Shown: positions 3,648-17,871 of the stretch, piece by piece
How positions within the stretch are numbered: the first letter of the stretch is position 1
Layout of the letters: each line of letters opens with the position of its first letter
Origin: a virus
Virus record (IMG/VR): IMGVR_UViG_3300017744_000211
Coordinates: 1 to 20,132 of that record
DNA length: 20,132 nt
Strand: one strand, 5' to 3'
Position numbers and translations under genes: made by a program
The notes under the pieces: model-generated
The model's database searches: none
Seen by the model: the letters and a program-made list of their open reading frames with translations, nothing else
What the model was told of the DNA's origin: nothing

Positions 3648-3793
3648 TACTTAACCTCTCTTATTTCTTTTATATCTAATATAGTTTTACCCCACCATAA
3701 ATATTCGCTATATGTTTCGCAATTGTTTATTAGATCTAAATGCTTTACTTCGTTAAACGCGTTAACTAATTCTTTTAATTTATTATTAATCAT
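3647..3793 (-). CDS. Small hypothetical protein, 48 aa
   Basis: A gene below common length cut-offs. The ATG at 3793-3791 overlaps the preceding TGA as ATGA, and its TAA (3649-3647) overlaps the next start as TAATG, so it fills the space between its neighbours exactly. The product begins MINNKLKELVNAFNEVKHLD, has a WWGK motif near the middle and ends KEIREVK. It is probably a helical cytoplasmic peptide. No family recognised; confidence rests on the perfect double coupling. Confidence 0.58.
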   Translation of the reverse strand: MINNKLKELVNAFNEVKHLDLINNCETYSEYLWWGKTILDIKEIREVK

Positions 3794-4119
3794 ACGTGTA
3801 ACGCCCCGCAGTAATCTAATTGTGTTCTACAGTCATTACAGTCACCGCTATAAACGTCTTTACGCGTATTATATGGATCGTGTGCGGCGAACGTTCTTTC
3901 CGCGTTAGGGTTTGTATTAATAGCTAGGCTAGGCTCTTTATTATCTACAACTAAAACGTCGTCGTTATCAATAACAACGGAGTTATATAATTGTACTAAA
4001 CGGTCGCTAGCTAGTACGTGGGTTAGTGTTAGGGTTTTTGTATCATCTTTTTTTATAGCTACGTAGGTACGCCCCTTAATAGCTTTAGTATCTTTACTAA
4101 TTACTTTAATTAGTTTCAT
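3790..4119 (-). CDS. Hypothetical protein with C-terminal Cys cluster, 109 aa (first gene of the early operon)
   Basis: The ATG is preceded by a full AGGAGG four bases after which the start region begins (leader TTACTAGGAGGTAAAAATG), the best ribosome-binding site in this half of the window. Residues 1-60 look like a beta-rich SH3-like fold (IKGRTYVAIKKDD, VVIDNDDVLVVDN). The C-terminus contains GDCNDCRTQLDYCGALHV, three cysteines and a histidine that could bind metal. Its position just downstream of a terminator and a -10-like element suggests it opens a transcription unit running to the left. Function unknown. Confidence 0.62.
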   Translation of the reverse strand: MKLIKVISKDTKAIKGRTYVAIKKDDTKTLTLTHVLASDRLVQLYNSVVIDNDDVLVVDNKEPSLAINTNPNAERTFAAHDPYNTRKDVYSGDCNDCRTQLDYCGALHV

Positions 4120-4121
4120 TT

Positions 4122-4135
4122 TTACCTCCTAGTAA
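4122..4135 (-). repeat. Variant copy of the TTACTAGGGAGTAA intergenic element, serving as RBS leader
   Basis: On the minus strand this reads TTACTAGGAGGTAA and lies directly upstream of the ATG at 4119, supplying its Shine-Dalgarno sequence. It differs from the consensus TTACTAGGGAGTAA only in the centre. The arms TTACT and AGTAA of the consensus are inverted repeats. Other copies are at 4345-4358, 16387-16402, 16788-16801 and 16977-16990. Confidence 0.6.
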
Positions 4136-4142
4136 TAATTTT

Positions 4143-4282: not shown

Positions 4283-4336
4283 AAAAAACCGGGATTGTAC
4301 AAAAAAAATATATATCTTTTACTTTCCCGGTTTTTT
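4283..4336. terminator. Long-loop intrinsic terminator after the holin gene
   Basis: A perfect 12-bp stem AAAAAACCGGGA (4283-4294) pairs with TCCCGGTTTTTT (4325-4336) across a 30-base A/T-rich loop. A- and T-tracts on both sides let it act in both directions. On the minus strand it closes the unit ending with the holin. The core resembles the other two terminators in the window (CCCGG or CCCGGG stems with flanking A/T tracts), but the loop is unusually long. Confidence 0.7.
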
Positions 4337-4344
4337 CTACTTTA

Positions 4345-4358
4345 TTACTAGGGAGTAA
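4345..4358 (+). repeat. Copy of the TTACTAGGGAGTAA intergenic element
   Basis: Perfect consensus, plus-strand orientation. It lies between the holin stop (4395) and the terminator (4283-4336), the same arrangement as the copy at 16387-16402. There is no minus-strand gene start here, so this copy is not acting as a ribosome-binding leader on that strand. Confidence 0.55.
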
Positions 4359-4394
4359 TTAAGTAAGTATTAATACTAATAGCTTAAATAATTA

Positions 4395-4619
4395 TTACCA
4401 AGTTTGTTTTGGTTTATATTGTTCTAGCGCGTGTTGGATAACTGTAATAAAAGAACTTAGAAAAGCTACTCCTAATAATTCAACTAGATCGGCGTCAATA
4501 ATGCCGGTACTATTTGCTAAATACAAACTAATAGCAGATTGTAAACCTGTGCGAAATGCTTTACTAAGCATAAAACCCCAATAGGCTTTCCAATTTTTAG
4601 ACGACTTTGTATTTGTCAT
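4395..4619 (-). CDS. Holin, r1t-like small holin
   Basis: A 74-residue protein with a strong Shine-Dalgarno (GGAGGA four bases before the ATG). Residues about 10-35 (WGFMLSKAFRTGLQSAISLYLA) and 43-66 (LVELLGVAFLSSFITVIQHALEQY) are two amphipathic to hydrophobic helices, with a basic C-terminus (KPKQTW). Length, two-segment layout and position directly after the endolysin fit the phage r1t-type holin family typical of actinophages. Holins accumulate in the cytoplasmic membrane and release the endolysin. It overlaps the endolysin end by 23 bases and is the last gene before the terminator at 4283-4336. No dual-start motif is obvious. Confidence 0.78.
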   Translation of the reverse strand: MTNTKSSKNWKAYWGFMLSKAFRTGLQSAISLYLANSTGIIDADLVELLGVAFLSSFITVIQHALEQYKPKQTW

Positions 4620-5358
4620 TTTTCCTCCTTTCAGTTCCTATAAACTCCATAAGTTTGCCGTAGGTGTTAGCTCCGACTATACCGTCTTCTACTAGCCCGG
4701 CTTTTTTTTGAAATATTAAAACATTAGCCTGCGTCATCGCACCAAATATACCGTCAGTAGTTAAAGCTATACCCAAAGCCTCATTTAATAGTTCCTGTAC
4801 TTTTTTAACCCCGGCGCCTTTACTACCTTTACGTACGGGTTTTAGATCTAAACCGGTTTTAACATATTCTTTTTGATCAAAATTTTTCCTCACTAAACCT
4901 TTAGCTAATTCGGTAGGTGTTACAAAAATCTCAAAATGCATCGGGTCTTTGTAACTGTTATAGTTACCGCCCCACCTAAAAACCGGTAAGCCGTCATTAG
5001 TTGTTATGTTTAGTATTTTATCTATAGTTTCTTTTTTAAAATTAGTTTTAGTTGTACCGTCGCGCGTTACCGGGTTTAAATCCCAATTTATATCCACGGC
5101 TAAACCGTAGGCGTGACAGCTATATTTATTACTATTAGCTATTTTTCTATAGTTATAGCCACCCGTAGTATTACGGTGGGTTATGTAATTATCTTCTTGT
5201 AAACAAAAATTTAATAATGTAAAAGCAGATAAAACATTTTTATTTATTTTAGCCCGCCCTTTACCATTAAAATTAATTATTGTTGTGTCGCTTGTGTTAC
5301 CTAAAGCACTTTTCCAATGCTCTAAATACCAATTACTACTTCCTCGTCTTGTACTCAT
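4597..5358 (-). CDS. Endolysin: M15 peptidase domain plus C-terminal PG_binding_1 domain
   Basis: I place the start at the ATG at 5358 (ATGA overlap with the preceding stop, 253 aa); an in-frame ATG at 5379 adds seven residues and cannot be excluded. In the longer numbering, SCHAYGLAVDIN gives His89 and Asp96 and DPMHFEI gives His148. These are the SxHxxGxAxD and MHxE zinc-ligand pattern of M15B/C L-alanyl-D-glutamate or D-Ala-D-Ala peptidases. Residues about 182-244 (VRKGSKGAGVKKVQELLN, then TTDGIFGAMTQANVLIFQ, then DGIVGANTYGKL) form a peptidoglycan-binding domain. There is no signal peptide, so export depends on the holin. The full set of metal ligands is present. Confidence 0.9.
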   Translation of the reverse strand: MSTRRGSSNWYLEHWKSALGNTSDTTIINFNGKGRAKINKNVLSAFTLLNFCLQEDNYITHRNTTGGYNYRKIANSNKYSCHAYGLAVDINWDLNPVTRDGTTKTNFKKETIDKILNITTNDGLPVFRWGGNYNSYKDPMHFEIFVTPTELAKGLVRKNFDQKEYVKTGLDLKPVRKGSKGAGVKKVQELLNEALGIALTTDGIFGAMTQANVLIFQKKAGLVEDGIVGANTYGKLMEFIGTERRKNDKYKVV

Positions 5359-6572
5359 AAAATCTCTATATCGCTCCATTTCCTAAAATCTTTACTACTG
5401 TGTAACACTAAGGTAGTAACGCCGGGTAAACTTTCGTCGCCCCCGCTTTCTTCAAAATATTGGCTACCGTTGTCTATTGTGTTAGCCCCTAACAATAAAC
5501 GCCTATCGGTTTCTTTACTCCAATGGTGGTGGTAATGCCCTACTAAAAGTACACTAGTAGAGTAAAAACCACCTTTACTAGGCTTACTAGCCATTTTATT
5601 AAACCAATTTTCTACACGGCCGGCCGGTGTCGTTCCGCGCCGAGCTTGGTGACCGTGGGCTATCGTAAGTACGGTACCCGGTAAAACTTCAACACTATAG
5701 GCCAAACTTTGATCGGGTATCGTAAATTTAACGTGTTTTTTACTAGGGTCGGCTTTTAATATCTGTGCTACTTCATCAAACAGTTCGCCGTCTTTATTGT
5801 CGCCAAAGGTTGTATAAGCCTTATTACCTATTCTTTTTTCGCCGTGGTTACCTAATGCACATAACCCTAACACCTCATTAAAATCTTTACTAAATGTATT
5901 AAATGCGTCTAATAACATTTGCCGGGCAACTGTTTTTTGTTGACGTTCATCTAATACTGTTGTAAAAGTTTGCATAGGGTAATGGCCGGAACACGATTCA
6001 ACTAAATCTCCTAAACCTACAATAATTAATTTATCTAAATCTTCTTTATATTTATGTTTTAAGTGTCTTATTTGTAGTTTTATACTTACTAAGCTAGCGT
6101 AATACCTTTTAAGCATTTCTTCGCTACCCTCTTTTCCTACTTGCCAATCGCTCATACATATAACAAAAGCTTTTTTATTTTTTGTTTTTTTTAGATCTAC
6201 GGGCTTTTTACGTTTAGCCCCGTTTATTAGTCTTTTTAATTCTTTATCATCGTATTTATTATCTTTACGCGCGTATATGTTAGCTTTAAAATAATAAAAA
6301 TTTTGTATACCCTCATTACCCCAACCCTGCCACGTTCTAAAGTTTACGGGATCATCTTCACGGACATAAAAATCTTTATGAGCGTCTTTACCAAGCCAAA
6401 AATCTATCCACTCGTTCCAATTAGGGTTTCCTTGCGGTATAGCTTTAGTAGTAATACTACCTTTAGACCCGTTCATTTCTACGCCGGGTACCCAACTACC
6501 GTCCGGTTTTACTTTATTACCTTTAGCCGTAGGTACGTCATTCCTAGTAGCGGCAAATTTTTCTAAATCCAT
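5355..6572 (-). CDS. Calcineurin-like metallophosphoesterase
   Basis: A 405-residue protein with an ordered set of metallophosphoesterase motifs: DWQ (142-144, with Gln in place of the common DxH histidine), GLGDLVE (Asp189), GNH (241-243), AHGH (305-308) and GHYHHH (345-350). The first ~130 residues are a separate region (WQGWGNEGIQNFYYFKANIY) with no motif I can name. Phages often carry such an enzyme; candidate substrates include DNA ends (Mre11/SbcD-like), cyclic nucleotides or phosphoproteins, and the sequence does not decide. It sits between a small unknown gene (TAATG) and the endolysin (overlap), so it is expressed with the lysis genes. The Gln substitution is also seen in some active Mre11-like phage enzymes, as I recall. 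Confidence 0.82.
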   Translation of the reverse strand: MDLEKFAATRNDVPTAKGNKVKPDGSWVPGVEMNGSKGSITTKAIPQGNPNWNEWIDFWLGKDAHKDFYVREDDPVNFRTWQGWGNEGIQNFYYFKANIYARKDNKYDDKELKRLINGAKRKKPVDLKKTKNKKAFVICMSDWQVGKEGSEEMLKRYYASLVSIKLQIRHLKHKYKEDLDKLIIVGLGDLVESCSGHYPMQTFTTVLDERQQKTVARQMLLDAFNTFSKDFNEVLGLCALGNHGEKRIGNKAYTTFGDNKDGELFDEVAQILKADPSKKHVKFTIPDQSLAYSVEVLPGTVLTIAHGHQARRGTTPAGRVENWFNKMASKPSKGGFYSTSVLLVGHYHHHWSKETDRRLLLGANTIDNGSQYFEESGGDESLPGVTTLVLHSSKDFRKWSDIEIL

Positions 6573-6841
6573 TATAAAGTTAGGTTATTTTCTTCGGCTA
6601 TACGTGCAATAATTTTGCGTAAACCCTCTTTACTTACCATATTAAACCCTAAATGTAGATTACAATATTCAGCTAATGTTAAATAGTTGTACCTATAAGC
6701 CCCGGGCTCATTTTGTTTTGTTTTAGCCTCTTTTAAAAGATCTATAATAATCTTAGTGTAGGCCGGATATTTATTTTCAAATTTACGTTTACTAGAAATA
6801 CTTTTTTTATTAACAAAAGTTTCTAAATTAACTTTAGTCAT
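6572..6841 (-). CDS. Hypothetical protein, 89 aa, first gene of the lysis unit
   Basis: A basic, helical 89-residue protein. The middle (TKIIIDLLKEAKTK, then LTLAEYCNLHLGF, then SKEGLRKIIARIAEENN) looks like a small helix-turn-helix or winged-helix domain, which would suit a transcription regulator or DNA-packaging accessory, but this is only a shape-based guess. It is the first gene after the terminator at 6905-6938 and a -10-like element, so it likely heads the unit with the phosphoesterase, endolysin and holin. The stop overlaps the next ATG (TAATG). Confidence 0.55.
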   Translation of the reverse strand: MTKVNLETFVNKKSISSKRKFENKYPAYTKIIIDLLKEAKTKQNEPGAYRYNYLTLAEYCNLHLGFNMVSKEGLRKIIARIAEENNLTL

Positions 6842-6904: not shown

Positions 6905-6938
6905 AAAAAAACCCGGCTAATTAAACCGGGTTTTTTTT
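6905..6938. terminator. Intrinsic terminator at the end of the late operon
   Basis: Seven A's plus CCCGG (6905-6916) pair with CCGGG plus seven T's (6926-6937) across a 9-base loop, and a T-tract follows. On the minus strand it also ends in a T-tract, so it is bidirectional. It separates the tail-side genes ending at 7103 from the lysis unit starting at 6841. Same architecture as the terminators at 4283-4336 and 16344-16376. Confidence 0.8.
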
Positions 6939-7102: not shown

Positions 7103-7585
7103 TTAATGTCCGTGACCTGCGGCCTCTAGATAAGCTAATCTAGATTTTAAATCGTTAAGTTCCCACATATTATTATTAACACTTTGTATTTGTGTTTCTA
7201 CCCTAGTTAATGAATCGTTTAGTTCTTGATACTCCCATTTTTCTAATAAATAATATCTATCTAGATCAAAACCGCCGTCCCTTACTTGTTGTTCTAAGTT
7301 AAATAAATTAGCCTGTAGGGTAGCCATTTCCTCATTAAACCTGCCTACATTTTGTGCCGCCATTTCTAACGCTTGTATTTTTTCATAAAGTACTGCTATG
7401 TCGTTTTGAACGTATGTACTTTCTTTTAATGTATTAAATTCGTATTCGATATTATTCATACGGTCATCTATACCCTGTAAAGTATTAACAATATCTGCTG
7501 CGGTACTAAGCCCGGTACCTATAGTACCCATTAAAGCAATCGCCGTAGCTATTAGGCCTATGTTATCTTTTATTTTACTTAGCAT
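7103..7585 (-). CDS. Membrane-anchored coiled-coil protein, 160 aa
   Basis: The N-terminus has a short basic start (MLSKIKDN) and then a hydrophobic helix (IGLIATAIALMGTIGTGL, residues about 9-26), fit for a signal anchor. Nearly all the rest is heptad-like coiled coil (residues about 30-150: IDDRMNNIEYEFNTLKES, IQALEMAAQNVGRF, LNDLKSRLAYLEAAGHGH). It ends GHGH. One N-terminal anchor plus a long periplasm- or wall-facing coiled coil resembles spanin-like or anchor proteins, but gram-positive-type hosts lack an outer membrane, so the role is unclear. It is the last gene before the structured gap and terminator, and clusters with two other small coiled-coil/membrane genes. Confidence 0.6.
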   Translation of the reverse strand: MLSKIKDNIGLIATAIALMGTIGTGLSTAADIVNTLQGIDDRMNNIEYEFNTLKESTYVQNDIAVLYEKIQALEMAAQNVGRFNEEMATLQANLFNLEQQVRDGGFDLDRYYLLEKWEYQELNDSLTRVETQIQSVNNNMWELNDLKSRLAYLEAAGHGH

Positions 7586-15865: not shown

Positions 15866-16273
15866 CTAAGAAGTCGCTCTTGTTATTGTGCCGCTAGTTG
15901 GAAAACTAACAGAAAAACTTGCTAACTCACCTACACCATTAGCAACCGGTTGGTGTTGGTTTACCAAAACACTTCCGGAATAGCTAGGGTTAGTTGCGCT
16001 AACAGATCCCGCGTCAGCTTTTAAGACGAAAGTAGTAACAGTTCCCAAAAGTGGAAACAATGTTACGTCTACTTCACTAGAGGCGAAGTCTTGTTGGAAA
16101 TCAATACTTAAAGTACCGTCCTTAAGACCGCCTAATCTACTCTTAAAAGTTTGACCGAAAGCAGTTTCTTCTATTTCGTCCGCCGTAATATCTAAAGTAA
16201 CGCTAGCTATATGATCTGAAAGGTTTACACTATTCAAAACTAGGCTTGCGTTATTTAATACAAACTTTGCCAA
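15866..16273 (-). CDS. Major tail tube protein, short form, 135 aa
   Basis: The start is a TTG at 16273 with AAGGAG seven bases upstream. The start is supported by the paralogue at 17871, which begins MAKYVF against MAKFVL here. SVTLDITA (24-31) and LGGLKD (47-52) are shared with the paralogue, and 17 bases of DNA are identical (16185-16201 and 17783-17799). It ends GTITRATS with no extra domain. It adjoins the chaperone and tape measure genes, so this is the tube subunit by context. Upstream (16274-16403) lies a strong terminator, so its own promoter or readthrough is needed; I see no clear promoter (a TATAAG with no good -35). Confidence 0.82.
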   Translation of the reverse strand: MAKFVLNNASLVLNSVNLSDHIASVTLDITADEIEETAFGQTFKSRLGGLKDGTLSIDFQQDFASSEVDVTLFPLLGTVTTFVLKADAGSVSATNPSYSGSVLVNQHQPVANGVGELASFSVSFPTSGTITRATS

Positions 16274-16343: not shown

Positions 16344-16376
16344 AAAAACCCGGGCTACATATAAACCCGGGTTTTT
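16344..16376. terminator. Intrinsic terminator at the end of the inserted cassette
   Basis: AAAAACCCGGG (16344-16354) pairs perfectly with CCCGGGTTTTT (16366-16376) across an 11-base loop; bidirectional T/A tracts. On the minus strand it lies between the cassette gene ending at 16404 and the short tail tube gene starting at 16273, i.e. inside the tail gene region. Confidence 0.8.
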
Positions 16377-16386
16377 CTGTACGTAA

Positions 16387-16402
16387 TTAACTAGGGAGTT
16401 AA
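16387..16402 (+). repeat. Extended inverted copy of the intergenic element
   Basis: TTAACTAGGGAGTTAA, plus-strand orientation, lies between the last cassette gene and the terminator, like the copy at 4345-4358. It is opposite in orientation to the copy that precedes the cassette (16977-16990), so the cassette is bracketed by inverted copies. Confidence 0.5.
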
Positions 16403-16403
16403 T

Positions 16404-16592
16404 TTACGATTTTAAACAAGCTTTAAGAAATTTATTATAGTCAAAATTAGCATTATCTTCTGCAAATCTCGTAGCTAAATTATTCATTAATTGGTCTAAT
16501 GTAAAGCTAGCGCTTTGTTGCCCCTCTTTTAACTTAACCATTTCGTTTATTTCCTCGGCTATCAATACATAATATTTTCTACTTAACGCCAT
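16404..16592 (-). CDS. Small conserved-type phage protein of the inserted cassette, 62 aa
   Basis: MALSRKYYVLIAEEINEMVK at the start and NLATRFAEDNANFDYNKFLKAC at the end form a recurrent pattern: LSRxxYxLIA, then LAxxFAxxNxxFDxxxFLxAC. I recognise this in small uncharacterised phage and prophage proteins (usually NPRFDRxRFLAAC). It is usually placed with early or regulatory genes, not tail genes. The start follows the previous stop by one base. Function unknown; possibly host takeover. Confidence 0.6.
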   Translation of the reverse strand: MALSRKYYVLIAEEINEMVKLKEGQQSASFTLDQLMNNLATRFAEDNANFDYNKFLKACLKS

Positions 16593-16593
16593 T

Positions 16594-16785
16594 TTATACC
16601 TCTTTCCATTCGGCTAAACTAAATATTTTAGCTTTTATGCTATCGTTTTCTTCTCTATTACAAAAGTATTCAACTTGTTTTAATGTTTCAAAATAGCCCT
16701 CGCCCATATATTGACCTTTTTTAAACATTTCATTAGTATCTTTGCTTACTAATTTAACTACGTAATTTATTCCTGTATTTTTCAT
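16594..16785 (-). CDS. Hypothetical small protein of the inserted cassette, 63 aa
   Basis: A 63-residue protein beginning MKNTGINYVVKLVSKDTNEM, with a probable beta hairpin, then a helix (FETLKQVEYFCNREEND) and a beta strand near the end. The leader TTACTAGGGAGTAATAATG gives it a GGGAG ribosome-binding site within the repeated intergenic element. No family recognised. It lies between the other two cassette genes on one transcript. Confidence 0.58.
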   Translation of the reverse strand: MKNTGINYVVKLVSKDTNEMFKKGQYMGEGYFETLKQVEYFCNREENDSIKAKIFSLAEWKEV

Positions 16786-16787
16786 TA

Positions 16788-16801
16788 TTACTCCCTAGTA
16801 A
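16788..16801 (-). repeat. Copy of the TTACTAGGGAGTAA element upstream of the cassette's second gene
   Basis: Perfect consensus on the minus strand, three bases before the ATG at 16785 (GGGAG is the ribosome-binding site). It overlaps the stop (TAG) of the first cassette gene. Confidence 0.6.
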
Positions 16802-16974
16802 CTGTTTTCTATTTGTTTTAAAGCTAATCTAACTTTTACGGTATTAACTAGCTTTGTGTTTATATTGTTTTGATCTAAAACTTCTAATAGCGTAATACTT
16901 TTAGTATTAGAGTTTAGGTTAGTGTCTAAAGCTATAAATTTTACCGCTTTAGTTTCTATTTTATTTAGTGTCAT
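16795..16974 (-). CDS. Hypothetical small protein, first gene of the inserted cassette, 59 aa
   Basis: A frame just below usual length cut-offs: ATG at 16974, TAG at 16795. It begins MTLNKIETKAVKFIALDTNL and contains a helical, Leu/Ile/Val-rich stretch (SITLLEVLDQNNINTKLVN), ending KVRLALKQIENSY. The leader TTACTAGGGAGTAAAAATG provides a strong GGGAG site, and a sigma-70-like promoter lies 33 bases upstream. This supports a real, independently expressed gene. No family recognised; the segment ITLLEVLDQN-NIN-KLV could be a small dimer interface. Confidence 0.6.
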   Translation of the reverse strand: MTLNKIETKAVKFIALDTNLNSNTKSITLLEVLDQNNINTKLVNTVKVRLALKQIENSY

Positions 16975-16976
16975 TT

Positions 16977-16990
16977 TTACTCCCTAGTAA
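16977..16990 (-). repeat. Copy of the TTACTAGGGAGTAA element upstream of the cassette's first gene
   Basis: Perfect consensus on the minus strand, ending three bases before the ATG at 16974 and supplying its ribosome-binding site. With the extended opposite-orientation copy at 16387-16402 it brackets the three-gene cassette. Confidence 0.6.
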
Positions 16991-17006
16991 TTGTTTTTAT
17001 AAGTTA

Positions 17007-17036
17007 ATTATATACTACTTAGGTAAAATATGTCGG
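17007..17036 (-). promoter_or_regulatory. Sigma-70-like promoter of the inserted cassette
   Basis: On the minus strand, -10 TATAAT lies at 17012-17007 and -35 CCGACA (4 of 6 to TTGACA) at 17036-17031, with an 18-bp spacer. A transcript would start near 17000, about 26 bases upstream of the ATG at 16974, and would end at the terminator 16344-16376. The rest of the gap (17037-17145) holds no recognisable gene. Confidence 0.55.
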
Positions 17037-17145: not shown

Positions 17146-17871
17146 TTATGCTATGCCGATTGCCGCGTGGATAGATAAAGACGGATTAGTACCGCTAACA
17201 GTATAATTTAATCTAAAATGTGTATCAGTTATAGCGCCTGCAACTTTTTTGATCTCGCTATTAATAGCGGTAATACTTGTAAAGGTTGCTCTATCTGTTG
17301 GGCTTGTAAAATCGCTATTGTCATCGGATTGTAATTTAAACGTAATAGTAGGGGTACTTGTACCGCTTACCCCGTAACAATGTACTACGGCATAAAGGTT
17401 TTCAGTAGCTCCGACCGCTCCTAATTGTACGCCCGCGCTATTACCCGTTGCCGTAATGTCACCGTCTAATTGTATAGTACCCCTTACAACTGCATCGGTG
17501 GAGTTACTTTTACTTAATGTAAAAGGCGCTATGTCGCCTACGCTACCCAAGATATTATAACTAAATAATTTTGATTTTAAAAAGTAGGCGGTATTACCTA
17601 CCCCGGCGTCCGGTACTACGCTAACTATAATTTCATTACCTACGCTAGCGCCTAATAATGCGTCGGGTTTTTCTACCCCGGCCTCAAAAAAACCGTCTAC
17701 GTTAAGGCTACTGTCTTTTAAACCACCTAATAATTCCCTAAACCCACCGCTATTTATTGTCGTAGCGTCAAGTTCTTCGGCGGTAATATCTAAAGTAACA
17801 GAGTTAGTATGTGAGCTTAGATCGTAACCACCTAAAAATAACTTACCGTCCGTAAATACATATTTAGCCAT
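17146..17871 (-). CDS. Tail tube protein paralogue with C-terminal extension, 241 aa
   Basis: The N-terminal ~130 residues align with the short tube protein at 15866-16273: MAKYVFTDGKLFLGGYDLSS start, SVTLDITA at 24-31 and LGGLKD at 48-53. The extra ~100 residues (from about 135) form a beta-rich domain (RGTIQLDGDITATGNSAG, NLYAVVHCYGVSGTSTPTI, FRLNYTVSGTNPSLSIHAAI) of Ig-like or carbohydrate-binding type. In lambda and T5-like tails such C-terminal domains decorate the tube surface. It may be the main tube protein with decoration and the short form a minor partner, or the reverse. The start is TAATG-coupled to the 62-aa gene. Confidence 0.78.
   Translation of the reverse strand: MAKYVFTDGKLFLGGYDLSSHTNSVTLDITAEELDATTINSGGFRELLGGLKDSSLNVDGFFEAGVEKPDALLGASVGNEIIVSVVPDAGVGNTAYFLKSKLFSYNILGSVGDIAPFTLSKSNSTDAVVRGTIQLDGDITATGNSAGVQLGAVGATENLYAVVHCYGVSGTSTPTITFKLQSDDNSDFTSPTDRATFTSITAINSEIKKVAGAITDTHFRLNYTVSGTNPSLSIHAAIGIA

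Follow-up and report, generated by a model that had tools for sequence, protein, structure and literature searches.

We analysed a viral stretch of 20,132 bases (IMG/VR virus record IMGVR_UViG_3300017744_000211; hereafter the window, which also stands for its genome in comparisons). A cassette of three tiny genes lies there between two paralogous major tail protein genes, T1 and T2. We propose that the repeated elements at the ends of this cassette are probably a cognate RNA pair: a Shine–Dalgarno (SD) element at the 5′ end and a complementary anti-SD hairpin at the 3′ end, with anti-SD RNAs that would silence early and cassette genes at translation. Searching with T1 and T2 yielded 137 loci having both genes, which reduce to 68 distinct slots between them. 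Relatives are cited by L and G handles, and the genome records compared may be fragments. Comparison of these sequences supports a variable slot, a promoter and a terminator for the cassette, and a hairpin that covaries internally, with further covariation between SD and anti-SD.

SD elements and anti-SD hairpins

The elements occur at the cassette and at the early/late junction of the window, where they coincide with ribosome-binding sites (RBSs) or with predicted hairpins close to terminators (MFE, minimum free energy; z, z-score; ORF, open reading frame):

16977..16990 (−), SD element TTACTAGGGAGTAA of cassette gene 1; the hairpin UUACU-AGGG-AGUAA holds the Shine–Dalgarno sequence; exact complement of 4345-4358
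16788..16801 (−), second SD element, RBS of gene 2; exact copy in the same orientation as the first; seam where relatives differ
4122..4139 (−), SD element (ATTATTACTAGGAGGTAA) ahead of the first early gene (3790-4119), whose RBS is the two-mismatch copy at 4122-4135
16382..16408 (−), 3′ anti-SD hairpin CGUAAAUUAACU-CCCU-AGUUAAUUACG, overlapping the gene 3 stop codon; MFE −6.6, z −5.9
4337..4366 (−), anti-SD hairpin at the late-operon 3′ end, following the holin-like ORF 4395-4619; MFE −7.7, z −3.0
4283..4336 (−), late-operon terminator

Each forward copy in the cassette serves as an RBS, 2 nt ahead of ATG. A preliminary description of this DNA had inverted copies of one element bracketing the unit. 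Two such copies are indeed there, one at 16977-16990 and its inverted counterpart, with two mismatches, at 16388-16401. A third, internal and in the same orientation as the first, lies at 16788-16801, which means that simple bracketing does not describe the arrangement. An exact inverted copy (4345-4358) stands immediately ahead of the late terminator and provides a 15-nt exact complement of the cassette SD elements. A loose motif count allowing up to 3 mismatches found 8 occurrences where 5.0 were expected, and the motif is thus not enriched. Because this simple count gave no support, we used conservation and covariation instead. The three exact 14-mers do stand out above chance, as do the places where they occur and the way they are conserved and covary among relatives.

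Among relatives, the 5′ element takes lineage-specific forms (UUACUAGGGAGUAA, UUACUUAGGGAGGUAA, AUACUUGGGAGGUAU, GUACUUGGAGGUAA and UAGCUUAGGAGGUUAU), most of which can fold a small hairpin around the SD. Within one genome, the first cassette gene and the first early gene behind the late terminator share one form, which sometimes also heads a third unit. Used as a scan query, the first early gene of the window returned no relatives. In L182 and L192, AUU and not AUG seems to be the start codon of the first early gene, which lies behind a strong SD element.

All slots with a 5′ element (21/21) have a 3′ element 27–32 nt ahead of the terminator core, and neither element occurs in the other filled slots (0/25). 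A similar hairpin precedes the late terminator in the window, G002, G004, G005, G008, G009 and others. In the predicted fold, a small internal loop separates the outer from the inner stem, and a C-rich loop caps the structure, with z from −1.5 to −7.1. Across 15 variants every pair is standard, and 65 cells are double-changed compared with 24 ± 3.5 in shuffles (0/500 reached the observed value); slid controls of the alignment fail. These shuffle tests, and those below, leave relatedness among the sequences in place. The outer stem covaries even though it lies outside the shared element, which is evidence for an RNA beyond an inverted DNA site. Matches to Rfam all stayed below threshold, and one or more of them fell on an ordinary terminator region.

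SD and anti-SD also change together. The hairpin loop matches the element of its own genome over 15 nt in the window, 12 nt in G004, G002 and L182, 11 nt in G008/L283 and 10 nt in L185. When each genome's early element was compared with its own late anti-element, the longest matches summed to 134, whereas 20,000 permutations averaged 92 and peaked at 123. Double changes affect 7/10 pair columns, with 22 cells compared with 6.6 in shuffles (0/500). Predicted SD/anti-SD duplexes reach −18 to −25 kcal/mol, compared with −7.4 for the 16S anti-SD with gene 1 of the window. Ranking of candidate RBSs by duplex energy, with lists drawn from a simple ORF scan, placed the first genes of the cassette and/or the early operon at or near the top of ~100–200 candidates in most clade A genomes. 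For the late hairpin of G004 (159 RBSs), the order was the third unit, cassette gene 1, early gene 1 and cassette gene 2. Four clade C slots (L050, L134, L146 and L088) display partial SD/3′ complementarity only, judged by eye, and were not counted.

Phages of the sister clade (clade B), where empty slots occur, are without the late-strand hairpin. In nine of its contigs, a hairpin of the type CUAACA-CUCCAUU-UGUUAG lies on the opposite strand behind TGnTAnnnT, a promoter assigned by eye, and shares the same terminator. Over ~6–9 nt, this hairpin is complementary to RBSs of the GGAGUG type that belong to early genes and some slot genes. This arrangement makes up an apparent opposite-strand small RNA of ~70 nt, with a CUCC loop and a shared bidirectional terminator; it was seen downstream of the holin-like gene in L258, L254, L248, L198, L210, L245, L252, L255 and L259, and also in the G011:21156 region (minus strand). 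On the phage contig of an Actinomarina single cell, the unusual loop UCCCGCU matches an odd slot-gene RBS, AGCGGGA, ranked third there; we consider this match suggestive only.

Proposed translational switch and alternative explanations

In the mechanism that we propose, the 5′ SD hairpin would load ribosomes on the first cassette gene or genes and on the first early gene. Its complement would be carried in the C-rich loop of the anti-SD hairpin, located in the 3′ untranslated region (UTR) and joined to the cassette and late-operon terminators. Accumulated 3′ ends would pair with the SD elements as kissing loops extending to 10–15 bp. Such pairing would exclude ribosomes, turning early and cassette translation off as late transcription rises, and the cassette would limit itself through its own 3′ hairpin. 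We infer the pairing itself, its sign (repression) and its timing, and we assign repression to the late and cassette 3′ ends because of the analogy with icaR described below. The hairpins might instead act by activation, by transcript stabilisation or via a protein partner. If the proposal is true, an early-to-late translational switch would be written into terminators, visible only via genome comparison, in viruses of an abundant uncultured ocean actinobacterium. Its comparative signature, an SD element covarying with a terminator-linked hairpin, could be searched for in other phages.

Several observations weigh against this proposal. The cassette anti-element of L012 matches its own SD by 8 nt only, and G003/L190 is without an SD-complementary C-run. 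In genomes of the L182/L192 type, the first early gene is without a standard start codon and could not be ranked. The alignments behind both covariation tests were parsed by hand from folds. Pairing of the clade B small RNA spans only ~6–9 nt, with less specific targets. Finally, an inverted DNA copy is always complementary to its original, so SD/anti-SD covariation alone also fits a DNA site.

This last point leads to the reading in which the elements are DNA operators, with a phage regulator binding the near-palindrome TTAC-N-GTAA near promoters and terminators and the inversion being incidental. Being near-palindromic, the element would suit such a regulator, and it lies a short distance downstream of −10 boxes; sites of one regulator would also change together within a genome. 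We nevertheless find this unlikely: half-site spacing varies from 6 to 8 nt between lineages, the forward copy is placed exactly as an SD at start codons, and the 3′ copies, invariably inverted, are embedded in a longer hairpin that covaries in its outer stem, a part outside the shared element. A protein might also be involved at the RNA level, with the hairpins bound by an RNA-binding protein of phage or host that represses translation or stabilises the transcript, and no RNA–RNA pairing taking place. Conservation of hairpins at both 5′ and 3′ ends would suit such a protein, yet the SD and anti-SD loops are each other's complements, not look-alikes, and they covary in that way; we judge this explanation very unlikely.

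Two further readings concern gene exchange. The elements could mainly be recombination seams, that is, short linkers for swapping cassette genes, with complementarity as a by-product. Near-identical relatives do differ exactly at the element before gene 2, and one cargo family (F20) occurs as an early gene too. Covariation of the outer stem, the late-terminator copy and the joint change of loop and SD would be left unexplained, and this reading strikes us as very improbable. We regard a transposon-like or site-specific mobile cassette with terminal inverted repeats as barely credible. Inverted copies do flank a gene unit that is present in some relatives and absent from others, but we recognised no transposase or recombinase gene in the cassette, its promoter and terminator lie outside the copies, one copy is internal, others stand at the early/late junction, and 25 filled slots have no copies. 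A transposon would have a transposase and repeats at its outer ends only, and we set this candidate aside. A role of the repeats as mobile-element boundaries was likewise not supported, the copies being SD and anti-SD elements that also occur at the early/late junction.

The RNA-pair proposal has a broader form, which we put forward tentatively and consider less probable than not. Each early-type operon would be headed by a private, coevolving SD element, and an anti-SD RNA would silence them all. This RNA would come from late and cassette 3′ ends or, in the sister clade, from an opposite-strand small RNA gene. Translational immunity specific to a phage type would then be possible, and the start-associated sequence (SAS) of cluster K1 mycobacteriophages, with its lone inverted copy, would be explained.

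Comparison with known antisense and start-associated elements

The closest precedent for the proposed repression is the icaR 3′-UTR of Staphylococcus aureus, in which a UCCCC motif base-pairs with the SD, keeping ribosomes off and generating an RNase III site (PMC3868564). Both systems have a C-rich 3′-UTR motif complementary to an SD, which lies here in the same predicted transcript or in a different one. icaR is a single host gene, whereas the phages described here repeat one SD/anti-SD code at several operons, and the code covaries between phages. Among phages, the c4 antisense RNA of P1 and P7 acts on ant in immunity (review PMC12197685). Here, too, phage RNA loops are complementary to the RBS region of phage mRNA; unlike c4, the anti-SD hairpin adjoins terminators, with several putative targets. 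The Rfam C4 covariance model gave no match up to E 1 in 9 sources.

Cluster K mycobacteriophages carry the SAS, an SD-containing repeat at the starts of non-structural genes, with one inverted copy in four K1 phages (PMC3203893). An SD-containing start repeat and a lone inverted copy recall the arrangement in the window. The sequences differ (a 13-bp GGGATAGGAGCCC near starts compared with TTACTAGGGAGTAA), the inverted SAS copy has no obvious terminator link, and the parallel is one of analogy only. In Adephagia, the lone inverted copy (L314:28683-28695, record ~58682) lies in the loop of a long predicted hairpin, within a 430-nt gene-free gap between gp92 and gp93, and this region has matches in 177 phage records. 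The hairpin loop is kept in Curiosium and Biglebops, at best partial in Amgine, DarthP, Shadow1 and Shandong1, and was not found in Pixie, MacnCheese or Oscar. In DarthP and Shadow1 it is only a partial complement, and their comparison revealed no covariation. The Adephagia hairpin is suggestive of a possible anti-SAS RNA, a lead rather than a demonstration. Our proposal thereby offers a testable idea for SAS repeats, unexplained since 2011, in a laboratory system (Adephagia with M. smegmatis).

The slot between the tail paralogues

The cassette and its flanks are organised as follows (pLDDT, predicted local distance difference test):

17146..17871 (−), upstream flank, major tail protein paralogue T2; phrog_9522, E 1.4e-43
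17031..17036 (−), −35-like hexamer CCGACA of the cassette promoter, from sequence
17007..17012 (−), −10 TATAAT of the cassette promoter, from sequence and leader enrichment in relatives
16795..16974 (−), cassette gene 1, family F1; 59 aa, three predicted helices, model pLDDT 90
16594..16785 (−), cassette gene 2, family F4; 63 aa
16404..16592 (−), cassette gene 3, family F0; 62 aa, the commonest cargo family, model pLDDT 81
16344..16376 (−), intrinsic terminator of the cassette; 11-bp stem, predicted to work in both orientations
15866..16273 (−), downstream flank, major tail protein paralogue T1; phrog_4574, E 5e-30

The preliminary description had placed three ORFs, a promoter, a terminator and inverted copies at this locus, and each of these is present on the minus strand. 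Its neighbours, described there as tail genes, both match major tail protein PHROGs (9522 and 4574). Conservation as well as sequence confirms the cassette promoter and terminator. The two promoter hexamers are 18 nt apart, and a perfect TATAAT lies upstream in 18/28 distinct element-bearing leaders compared with 13% of shuffles. CCGACATTATT recurs before the cassette elements of L019 and L022 and before the third element-headed unit in G004, the contig of L020.

Relatives of T2 are encoded in 191 candidate stretches (viral contigs), and T1 is 32–36% identical to T2 of relatives. Among the 68 distinct slots, 22 are empty (62–69 bp, with the T1 RBS only) and 46 are filled (270–1524 bp), nearly all of the latter with 1–4 tiny genes. 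BLAST sorts these into ~30 small families, led by F0 (19 slot ORFs), F1 (13), F2 (7) and F3 (6); no tRNA was found in the slots. On a T2+T1 tree, the cargo or empty state requires 11 changes, at least 9–10 of them on starred branches. The tail proteins of L054 (filled) and L060 (empty) are almost identical, and what distinguishes the two is a 216-bp insert straight after the T2 stop codon. Near-identical phages can differ by a single gene. Among the nearest relatives of the window, L082 is without gene 2, L006 has two other genes in its place and L004 carries a different gene 3 allele; promoter, element and terminator are retained in all three, and the junctions in L082 and L006 fall at the element before gene 2. 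In one slot (L013), a promoter-like stretch and a terminator persist without a gene. The relative with such a slot, devoid of genes and elements (L191/L154-L155 (G003) and the L013 slot), also has a late hairpin lacking the SD-complementary C-run.

Morons are independent transcription units inserted in late operons (PMC6316719). The window cassette resembles them in having a promoter, tiny genes and a terminator among late genes, in its presence or absence between relatives and in cargo without an evident structural role. It differs in having a slot of its own between the two tail paralogues, where turnover of genes is frequent, and a putative RNA pair at its ends that is common to the early operon. 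Weak relatives of F0 were found among small mycobacteriophage genes that lie outside the structural region, and also near the left end of pelagiphage HTVC033P; F20, a slot cargo family, is also an early gene in G005. Slot variability, the weak relatives of F0 and the early F20 gene fit the moron idea. The preliminary description of a self-contained early-type unit among late tail genes was borne out, with a promoter, an RBS element and a terminator of the early-operon kind. The presence/absence comparison that it proposed found clean ends, with inserts beginning immediately behind the T2 stop codon, and, with 22/68 slots empty, showed that the genes are not carried by all relatives. We conclude from these comparisons that the interval is an exchangeable accessory slot holding an early-type unit.

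Searches of the three cassette proteins and the main cargo families against PHROG, Pfam and PADLOC gave nothing informative, and PADLOC models did not identify the cassette proteins as known anti-phage defence proteins. The predicted structures of F0 and F1 are small helical folds with no PDB match at E ≤ 0.001. The slot may be a source for collecting small host- or phage-directed proteins.

No similarity to named phages was found for the 4-kb region or for T2. T2 is matched at 74% identity on a 29.7-kb contig, with its own slot gene, in a single-cell genome named Candidatus (Ca.) Actinomarina AG-919-G14, whose 16S rRNA 3′ end, CACCUCCUUUCU, has the canonical anti-SD. Bona fide phages of Actinomarinales have been reported (PMC7771536), and the cassette-bearing viruses are Ca. 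Actinomarina siphophages. A search of 18 related and possibly fragmentary records found no tyrosine integrase (PF00589).

In the sister clade, the −35 and −10 boxes of slot promoters enclose a covarying palindrome that may be a repressor operator: CCAC..GTGG in the leaders of L124, L054, L130, L141, L051 and L080, and TCAC..GTGA in those of L059, L061 and L128. Elsewhere in the window, an endolysin with Peptidase_M15_4 and PG_binding_1 domains (4597-5379) is followed by the holin-like ORF (4395-4619), and a strong bidirectional terminator without an anti-SD hairpin lies at ~6905-6937, between genes 6572-6841 and 7103-7585.
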